DNA from: Nakamurella alba | Lineage (GTDB): Bacteria > Actinomycetota > Actinomycetes > Mycobacteriales > Nakamurellaceae | Assembly (NCBI RefSeq): GCF_009707545.1 | Contig: NZ_WLYK01000001.1 | Coordinates: 620,001 to 684,000 of the forward strand | DNA length: 64,000 nt | Direction: 5' to 3' | Shown: positions 38,158 through 59,497 of the stretch, piece after piece | Layout: the number at the start of each line of letters is the position of its first letter | How positions within the stretch are numbered: the first letter of the stretch is position 1 | Translations under genes and position numbers: made by a program | The notes under the pieces: model-generated | Told to the model about the DNA's origin: nothing | The model's database searches: none | What the model saw: the letters and a program-made list of their open reading frames with translations, nothing else

Positions 38158-38405
38158 TCACGCGTCCGGGTACGACTCGACGTGCTGGTCCAGCGACACG
38201 ACCGACACGGACAGCCGCGCGTTCTTCGGCGGCCGGCCGTCCGGTCCCTTCACCTGCACAGTCGCTTCGCCCGGATCTCGCCCCGGTTGATCGCCCGCCG
38301 GATCTCCGACTCCGACAACGACGACAAGCGGGCCGCGTCGACCAGGTCCACCCAGAGAGGACGCATCGACACGACTCTGCCGTTCCAGGAGTTAATCTCA
38401 GTCAT
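38158..38405 (-). pseudogene. Frameshifted excisionase-like HTH gene
   Basis: From ATG 38405 the frame reads LWVDLVDAARLSSLSESEIRRAINRGEIRAKR, an excisionase-type DNA-binding helix-turn-helix, then meets an early stop. A second frame continues sensibly as VQVKGPDGRPPKNARLSVSV to a stop at 38158. One small indel near 38255 would restore a protein of about 82 residues. It adjoins the right copy of the direct repeat. Confidence 0.55.
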
Positions 38406-38451
38406 GGTCAACCTGACCATGACTGTCCGTGGGTACGAACCAGCCCGCACG

Positions 38452-57225: not shown

Positions 57226-58128
57226 ATGCTTCTCGGACTGCAGGTTCCCTCGTTCACCTGGCCGGACGCCCCGGCCGCGACCGGTCCCACCTTCAAGCGC
57301 ATCGCCGTCGAGGCGGAGCAGGCCGGCGTCGCCAGCCTCTGGGTGATGGACCACTTCTTCCAGATCAGCATGGTCGGTCCCGCCGAGGACGACATGCTGG
57401 AGGGGTGGTCGGCACTCGCCTTCGCCGCCGCCGCGACGGAGAGGATCAAGCTCGGCACCATGGTCACCGGGGTGACCTACCGGCACCCCGGCGTGCTGAT
57501 CAAGACCGCCACCACGCTGGACGTGCTGTCCGGCGGCCGCGCCTACTTCGGCATCGGCGCCGCCTGGAACGAGGAGGAACACCTCGGTCTGGGCGTCCCG
57601 TACCCGCCGCTGAAGGAGCGTTTCGAGCGGCTCACCGAGACCCTCCAGTTGGCGCACCAGATGTGGAAGGACGACGACAGTCCTTTCCAGGGCACGCATT
57701 ACCAGCTGCAGCGGCCGCTCAACCACCCGCAGTCGGTCAGCCGGCCGCACCCGCCGATCCTGGTCGGCGGCACCGGCGAGAAGAAGACCCTGCGACTGGT
57801 CGGGCAGTACGCCGATGCCTGCAACATCTTCGAGATGGACCTGCCCGGCATCACGCACAAGCTCGAGGTGCTGCAGAGCCACGCCGCCGACGTCGGCCGC
57901 GACTACGCCGCGATCGAGAAGACCACGCTGGGCACCCTGGCGCTGTCGAAGGACGGTGCCGACGGCACCCAGACCGTGCAGCAGGCGGTCGACCGGTTCG
58001 GCCGGCTCGCCGAGATCGGCATCGACCATGCGCTGGTGAACATGCCGGCCGTCGCGGTGCCCGGCACCTTCGACCTGGTGGCCGAGGTGGCCGCGCAGAT
58101 CGCCCCGATCGTCCCCGCCGGTCGCTGA
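57226..58128 (+). CDS. F420-type LLM-class oxidoreductase
   Basis: 300 residues, luciferase-like TIM barrel: SLWVMDHFFQ, IKLGTMVTGVTYRHPGVLIKTATTLDVLSGGRAYFGIGAAWNEEEH, HPPILVGGTGEKKTLRLVGQYADACN. The motif set is that of the F420-dependent subgroup of actinobacteria. Substrate unknown. Length is normal. Confidence 0.92.
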   Translation: MLLGLQVPSFTWPDAPAATGPTFKRIAVEAEQAGVASLWVMDHFFQISMVGPAEDDMLEGWSALAFAAAATERIKLGTMVTGVTYRHPGVLIKTATTLDVLSGGRAYFGIGAAWNEEEHLGLGVPYPPLKERFERLTETLQLAHQMWKDDDSPFQGTHYQLQRPLNHPQSVSRPHPPILVGGTGEKKTLRLVGQYADACNIFEMDLPGITHKLEVLQSHAADVGRDYAAIEKTTLGTLALSKDGADGTQTVQQAVDRFGRLAEIGIDHALVNMPAVAVPGTFDLVAEVAAQIAPIVPAGR

Positions 58129-58168
58129 CCCGTCCCGGTCGTTTCGGCCCGTCAGCTCCACCGCGACA

Positions 58169-58204
58169 GCACCGCCCGATCCGGCTCATAGGATCGGGCG
58201 GTGC
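58169..58204. promoter_or_regulatory. Large palindrome spanning the GT87 promoter and start codon
   Basis: GCACCGCCCGATCC pairs perfectly with GGATCGGGCGGTGC around an 8-nt centre. The right arm contains the GTG start (58201) and most of a TAGGAT -10 box (58189-58194). It may also end the oxidoreductase transcript 41 bp upstream. Confidence 0.65.
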
Positions 58205-59439
58205 TGAACGCCTTCGGTCGACGGGTCCTGGACACCCGCTGGGTGCCCTGGACGCTGCTCCTGGTCAGCCTCGTCGGCCACGTCGTCGTCACGCTGATCG
58301 GCGCCGACCCGTTCCGGATGATCGACCTGGAGGTGTACGTCCAGGGCGCACGGCACCTCACCGACGGCACCCTCTACGACTTCTTGGTCCCGCCGTTCGA
58401 CCTGCCGTTCACCTACCCGCCGTTCTCCGCCCTGCTGTTCACCCCGATCGCCTGGTTGCCGTGGTGGTTGGCCCGGGTGATCTGGCAGGTCGCGTCGATC
58501 GCCGCGCTGGCCGGGATCGTGTGGCTGTCGCTGCGGCTGCTCGGGATCGCCCCGTCCGGTGCGACGCGGCAACGGCTGCGGGCGGGCGTGGTGACCGGCA
58601 CCGCGCTGGGCATCTGGCTGGAACCGGTGCGCACGACCCTGAACTACGGCCAGATCAACCTCTTCCTCGTGCTGGTGCTGCTGGCCGGTGCGGTGGCGAC
58701 GAAGCAGGTGTGGGCCGGCGTCAGCGTCGGCCTCACCGCCGGGATCAAACTCGTCCCGGCCATCGCCGGGCTCTACTACTTGCTGCGCCGGCAGTGGACC
58801 GCGGTGTGGGTGTCGGCGGCGGTCTTCCTGGCCACCGCCGGGCTGATGCTGCTCGTCATCCCCGGTGAGACCTGGCGCTACTTCACCGCTCTCATCTTCG
58901 ATCCCGGTCGCACCGGGCCGGTGTGGTCGGCGATCAACCAGTCCTGGCGTGGCGCGCTGGCCCGGCTCGCCGGGCAGGAGGACGTCACCACCTCGTACTA
59001 CCTGGCCGCGCTGGTCAGCTTGGTGCTCGCCGGCGCCGCCTGCGCGTACGCCCTGCGGGCGGGGGACCGGGCGGCGGCGTTCCTGAGCATCCAGTTCGCC
59101 GGCCTGCTGGTCTCGCCGATCTCCTGGTCGCACCACTGGGTGTGGATCCTGCCGGCGATCCTCTGGTGCCTGACCGGCGAGCGCCGGCGCTCGCGGCCGG
59201 TCGTCGCCCTCGGCATCGCCTGGATCGTGGCGACCTTCAGCTACCTGGTGCCGGTCCTCATCGCGGTGCAGCAGTCCGACTACGGGCCGTCGCGCCCGCT
59301 GGTGCTGTCGCTGCTCGGCACCGTCTATCCGGTGCTCGGCCTGCTCACCCTGGCGGCGATCGCCTGGCGGTGTCGTAGAGTGGGCGACCGACACGGGAGT
59401 CCGGTGCGCCGGGCTGAGAGAGGGACACGAAGTCCCTGA
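58201..59439 (+). CDS. GT87-family (polyprenol-phosphate-mannose) glycosyltransferase
   Basis: 412 residues, multi-pass (about ten helices). Family features: IDLEVYVQGARHLTDGTLYDF with the aspartate of GT-C enzymes near the first outer loop, LPFTYPPFSALLFTP, LNYGQINLFLVLVL, GIKLVPAIAGLYYLL and SPISWSHHWVW. PimE-like mannosyltransferases of this class build cell-envelope glycolipids on the outer membrane face. The final 16 or so codons lie inside the thiamine riboswitch. Confidence 0.88.
   Translation: MLNAFGRRVLDTRWVPWTLLLVSLVGHVVVTLIGADPFRMIDLEVYVQGARHLTDGTLYDFLVPPFDLPFTYPPFSALLFTPIAWLPWWLARVIWQVASIAALAGIVWLSLRLLGIAPSGATRQRLRAGVVTGTALGIWLEPVRTTLNYGQINLFLVLVLLAGAVATKQVWAGVSVGLTAGIKLVPAIAGLYYLLRRQWTAVWVSAAVFLATAGLMLLVIPGETWRYFTALIFDPGRTGPVWSAINQSWRGALARLAGQEDVTTSYYLAALVSLVLAGAACAYALRAGDRAAAFLSIQFAGLLVSPISWSHHWVWILPAILWCLTGERRRSRPVVALGIAWIVATFSYLVPVLIAVQQSDYGPSRPLVLSLLGTVYPVLGLLTLAAIAWRCRRVGDRHGSPVRRAERGTRSP
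59376..59381 (+). promoter_or_regulatory. Possible -10 box of the thi operon, inside GT87
   Basis: TAGAGT within the 3' end of the GT87 gene, about 10 nt before the riboswitch. Confidence 0.4.
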
Positions 59440-59476
59440 CCGTCGAACCTGATCCGGGTCATGCCGGCGAAGGAAC
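59391..59476 (+). ncRNA. TPP riboswitch (THI element)
   Basis: Conserved thi-box features in order: ACACGGGAGTCCGG, GGTGCGCCGGGCTGAGAG (CTGAGA at 59414), then GTCGAACCTGATCCGGGT and CATGCCGGCGAAGGAA. It precedes thiB by 42 nt and would reduce expression when thiamine pyrophosphate is plentiful. Its first 49 nt are also coding for the end of the GT87 protein. Confidence 0.95.
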
Positions 59477-59497
59477 GTCGCTCTCTTCGATCCACCC

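Follow-up and report, generated by a model that had tools for sequence, protein, structure and literature searches.

A long perfect palindrome between a monooxygenase gene and a GT87 glycosyltransferase gene of Nakamurella alba: probably a gene-end hairpin in overlap with a predicted leaderless promoter

According to a 2025 review (PMC12288462), mycobacterial genes mostly use I-shaped terminators, which have no poly-U tract and lie within 50 bp of the stop codon. Termination by tail-less hairpins is disputed, and a 2014 title in the reference list of the same review says that the U-tract is required. For leaderless genes of Actinobacteria, a second publication (PMC3160421) places a TA-like signal some 10 bp ahead of the start codon. 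A limited look through open-licence titles and abstract openings on terminators, leaderless genes and promoter overlap did not bring up an arrangement in which a gene-end hairpin and the next promoter share the same DNA.

The palindrome described here lies between the genes of a luciferase-like monooxygenase and a GT87-family glycosyltransferase of Nakamurella alba, in a stretch of 64,000 nucleotides that was analysed as a whole (the window). The coordinates are listed in Table 1. With the I-shaped terminators of actinobacteria, the palindrome shares a GC-rich perfect stem without a T tail, a short loop, a distance of at most 50 nt from the stop codon and the membership in a large genome-wide class. 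It differs from them in that its right arm overlaps the promoter and the start codon of the next gene, that its loop has 8 nt and that termination is putative. We consider it reasonably likely that the palindrome is a tail-less ('I-shaped') terminator or an end-protecting stem-loop of the monooxygenase gene that is fused with the predicted leaderless promoter of the GT87 gene.

Table 1. Features of the monooxygenase-GT87 junction in window coordinates. The Pfam scan of the monooxygenase frame was begun one codon before 57226.
Feature	Positions	Strand	Remarks
Luciferase-like monooxygenase (Pfam PF00296), upstream gene	57226-58128	+	300 aa plus stop; Pfam E 2e-43
Palindrome, left arm	58167-58182	+	16 nt; starts 38 nt past the monooxygenase stop
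Palindrome, centre (loop of the RNA hairpin)	58183-58190	+	8 nt
-10-like box TAGGAT	58189-58194	+	ends 6 nt before GTG 58201
Palindrome, right arm	58191-58206	+	16 nt; includes the GT87 start codon
GT87-family glycosyltransferase (Pfam PF09594)	58201-59439	+	412 aa plus stop; Pfam E 9e-51; predicted leaderless GTG at 58201

The first-pass annotation of this DNA had placed a palindrome with 14-bp arms around an 8-nt centre at 58169-58204. The palindrome was present there and perfect around this centre, but the arms had been taken two bases too short on each side; the true arms are fully complementary over their whole length. In the gap of 72 bp between the two genes, the palindrome extends beyond the gap and reaches 6 nt into the GT87 gene. 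The -10-like box, the predicted start site (58201) and the GTG (58201-58203) are all located within it, as had been claimed. When perfect inverted repeats with loops of 0-20 were searched in the 64 kb, this was the longest one of the window. Another palindrome, CAGTCATGGTCAACCTGACCATGACTG, with 12-nt arms and a 3-nt centre, was observed at 38399-38425, where a short minus-strand frame with a weak score begins.

Perfect repeats with arms of at least 16 were absent from simulated Markov-4 sequence (3 x 864 kb), in which the longest was a single one with 15, and therefore the palindrome is not due to chance base composition. A perfect repeat of this size is not rare for the N. alba genome, where 19 with arms of at least 16 were counted in 864 kb, the present one included. 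The RNA of 58160-58212 was computed to fold with -40.6 kcal/mol, compared to an average of -17.2 for shuffled sequences (z -8.4). The first 100 nt of an RNA beginning at 58201 showed no unusual fold (z -0.5). An Rfam search of window positions 40000-64000 at the gathering threshold matched only a TPP riboswitch further downstream and assigned the palindrome to no known RNA family. A consensus scan of 57900-58400 found neither a sigma-70-type promoter nor a T-tailed terminator.

The distribution of such repeats was surveyed in 1.664 Mb (C1:220001-1884000) for perfect arms of at least 14 and loops of 3-16. This yielded 66 repeats: convergent and tandem gaps contained 28 each, divergent gaps 5 and coding DNA another 5. 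The same 1.664 Mb contains 231 convergent, 944 tandem and 231 divergent gene pairs, and the comparison of the 28 convergent to the 5 divergent repeats, with 231 gaps each, gave a P of 7e-5. Since the convergent and tandem repeats are many and the divergent ones few, the class fits gene-3'-end hairpins and not operators. Most of the tandem-gap repeats (21/28) begin at most 60 nt past the upstream stop, and the T tail is mostly missing; for 26 of the 28, the 8 nt that follow contain 0-3 T. The palindrome at 58167-58206 is followed by AACGCCTT, which has 2 T among 8 nt. This pattern recurs in 400 kb of a relative, G009, with twelve repeats (4 convergent, 6 tandem, 1 divergent and 1 coding), and all six tandem ones were within 60 nt of the stop. 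By its place, size and tail, the palindrome belongs to this class of gene-end hairpins. No other repeat among the 66 touches a predicted start codon. The loop of 8 in this palindrome exceeds the usual 4-5; a loop of 8 occurs in 6 of the 77 repeats with arms of at least 13.

The arms of these 77 repeats were also compared with each other, and no full-length repeated family was found among them, so a mobile or repeated hairpin element was rejected. The longest common words had 13, 11, 11 and 11 nt, compared to 10-12 in five shuffles that preserved base composition only; words of 8 nt were common to 70 arm pairs, compared to 21-34 in the shuffles.

The promoter signal was examined by counting the motif TANNNT before 1406 gene starts, which came from a simple codon-usage predictor and may individually be wrong. 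The motif occurred 61 times at a gap of 6 nt, 38 times at 7 and 20 times at 8, compared to a mean of 3.3 per position in the background at gaps 20-53. With its gap of 6, the TAGGAT of the GT87 gene falls inside this genome-wide peak and corresponds to the TA-like signal of PMC3160421. The box straddles the loop and the right arm of the palindrome, with the start codon following in the right arm. Because the TAG of the box is an in-frame stop, GT87 is unable to start further upstream. A difference to the described leaderless genes is that the AGGA within the box, 7 nt before the GTG, could double as a Shine-Dalgarno word. In principle, it could permit translation from a longer transcript, and leaderless is then not the sole reading; a hairpin in read-through RNA would conceal the AGGA as well as the GTG.

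The conservation of these elements was followed in a genus set of 17 genomes, the own one included, of which 14 (again with the own one) had GT87 matches. The upstream comparison used the 14 GT87 orthologues, and the more distant second GT87 copies (L046-L060) were left out. Upstream of the start, TAGGAT was present in five and TACGAT in three of the 14, which corresponds to 7 of the 13 relatives, and the gene starts with GTG-CTG or GTG-CTC in 5 of the 13. Together with the peak at gaps 6-8, these recurrences support GTG 58201 as the start codon, as in the first-pass annotation, and a leaderless layout, which that annotation had offered as one of two readings; transcription would then start at 58201. 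In G008 the gap between box and start is 8 nt and the gene is predicted to be leaderless as well. Among the boxed orthologues, this layout is limited to G008 and the own genome, whereas the likely GT87 start of the other six boxed relatives follows the box by about 36-80 nt, which distinguishes them from the described leaderless genes.

The palindrome itself was not found in the relatives. Its exact pattern occurs in one of the 17 genomes, which is the own one, and perfect inverted repeats whose arms exceed 8 nt were absent from all 13 relatives in the 260 nt upstream and 60 nt of the GT87 match (for G011, 128 nt upstream). With no equivalent hairpin in this region of the 13 relatives, a conserved riboregulator was rejected. 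When the junction DNA was searched in the genus, the best match outside the own genome, among the matches listed, comprised 40 bases in G008 (E 8e-5) and sits on a different contig from the G008 GT87 gene. Since the boxes recur in relatives and the palindrome pattern does not, the box seems to predate the palindrome, which appears to be specific to its own lineage among the 17 genus genomes.

At the monooxygenase side, the orthologues in G004, G013 and G010 have 72-76% identity. G004 has the same monooxygenase-GT87 pair and the same CATAGGATCG and lacks the hairpin; no perfect inverted repeat with arms of at least 7 and no unusual fold was detected at this junction. Past the monooxygenase stop, G013 has no hairpin with arms of at least 8 and G010 has one with arms of 8. 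Because these three are without a long hairpin, the structure is not conserved at the end of the monooxygenase gene, which counts against our main reading. A more distant homologue in G011 (53% identity) has a hairpin with 13-nt arms 42 nt past its stop, in a comparison of 14 monooxygenase 3' loci from which L202 was left out; this is counted in favour. Past the stop of the orthologous monooxygenase in G013 (L193), four copies of GGCGTGGATCMAC were observed with a spacing of about 19 nt.

In this lineage with its 72-bp gap, the 3'-end hairpin of the monooxygenase gene has probably merged with the leaderless promoter of GT87. In RNA made from upstream, the 16-bp stem would either terminate or protect the transcript of the monooxygenase gene, and in read-through RNA it would hide the GTG of GT87 from the ribosomes. 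As DNA, the palindrome would merely carry the -10 box. A transcript from 58201 would retain no more of the right arm than its final 6 nt, for which no hairpin is possible, and could be translated as a leaderless mRNA. The distance to the monooxygenase stop, the length and the folding energy of the stem, the missing poly-U tail and the location of the whole class at gene 3' ends argue for this reading, as does a copy of the inner palindrome at C1:773810, which sits 32 nt past a stop. The loop of 8, the sole start-codon overlap among the 66 repeats and the AGGA word count against it. The first-pass annotation had offered, as its other reading, a strong RNA hairpin that hides the GTG, with tight control in either case. 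In its form the hairpin is supported, as the fold buries the GTG, and hiding it from ribosomes is what we infer from this fold; tight control was not borne out, the simplest source of the palindrome being the 3' end of the monooxygenase gene.

As things stand, we see here an ordinary hairpin at an unusual site, and with its overlapping position it is probably a gene-end hairpin like others and not a special control switch. The locus suggests that, in a compact GC-rich genome, 40 bases can accommodate both a gene-end hairpin and the leaderless promoter of the following gene. For the downstream gene, such an overlap would be of little disadvantage, since a leaderless mRNA begins only with the start codon. 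It could also block translation from read-through RNA and, if true, would represent a simple insulation device.

The best surviving alternative is a selected silencer, in which selection would have preserved the left arm for masking the GT87 start in RNA read from upstream, so that GT87 is expressed only from its own promoter. The complete burial of the GTG by the hairpin, which a leaderless transcript is unable to form, is consistent with this. So are two more tandem-gap starts with TACTGT boxes, at C1:695988 (a short gap of 19) and at C1:1067718-1068848 on the minus strand (gap 36), where the start codon lies in a perfect palindrome with 11-nt arms and the box in or against it. The genome-wide counts do not follow this pattern. 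Palindromes with arms of at least 10 touch 5 of the 1406 starts. Control positions taken 10-200 nt into genes gave 3-7 such overlaps and positions 10-60 nt upstream gave 7-16, and the 5 do not exceed either range. A preference of palindromes for leaderless starts was rejected, since 2/119 leaderless-like starts compared to 3/1287 others was not significant (Fisher P 0.06); C1:695988 was scored as non-leaderless in this count, with its called start 3 nt past the box. As the GT87 locus also shows no conservation of the hairpin, selection as a silencer is rather unlikely. We give a similarly low probability to the broader proposal that, for some leaderless genes of actinobacteria with a tight tandem gap before them, one sequence serves as the terminator of the upstream gene, the promoter of the downstream gene and a lock on read-through translation. 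In such a lock, the hairpin would form only in RNA from the upstream gene, and the origin of the transcript alone would set the start codon open or closed.

A palindrome over the -10 box and the start site is the classic position of a repressor, and the first-pass annotation had offered a DNA operator as one of two readings. A dimeric repressor would bind the palindrome here over the -10 box and the predicted start site, and in this position the locus resembles the palindromic repressor operators. It differs from them in that the palindrome is longer and perfect, is unconserved and was found in one full copy, and in that no regulator family was present among the neighbours scanned, which were eight genes analysed with Pfam including the monooxygenase and GT87. 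Dimeric regulators usually need fewer than 16 perfect base pairs. The arm with up to 2 mismatches matched 568 places in the genome, compared to 139 for the reversed pattern, an excess that codon usage could also explain. Without mismatch, the 14-nt arm occurs once. Among the single-mismatch places, 29 of 30 were checked for a palindrome, and perfect arms of at least 10 were present in none and arms of 9 in two (L012 and L026), the one in L012 within a reading frame. The search for the element elsewhere in the genome, which the first-pass annotation had suggested as a check, turned up no second promoter with the site, neither in the own genome nor in the genus, for the arm with 0-1 mismatch and the exact palindrome; the copy at C1:773810 is the only other place with the exact inner pattern. 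This absence from other promoters and from the 16 other genus genomes, together with the low number of long repeats in divergent gaps, makes an operator very improbable, and the operator half of the earlier proposal is not supported. A palindrome that looks like the operator pair of a regulator was observed in a divergent gap of G000 at C1:1038694-1038733 (in L088), with two nested copies of TGTGGTCSGACCACA.

We also hold it to be a slight chance that the left arm is a functionless inverted copy of the old promoter and start region, made by template switching in replication: the conserved promoter box in the right arm, the near match of this arm in G009 and G015 (TAGGATCAGCGGGCGG) and the exact palindrome in the own genome alone are in line with such a relic, but the dozens of similar perfect gene-end hairpins suggest selection for stems and not a single accident.

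At the other end of the GT87 gene, the TPP riboswitch (Rfam RF00059, 60.6 bits) was located at window positions 59384-59492, where it shares 56 nt with the 3' end of the GT87 frame (stop 59439). It precedes ABC transporter genes, which encode a solute-binding protein, a permease and an ATPase. The transporter is presumably for thiamine, and if so, the promoter of the riboswitch would lie within the GT87 coding sequence.
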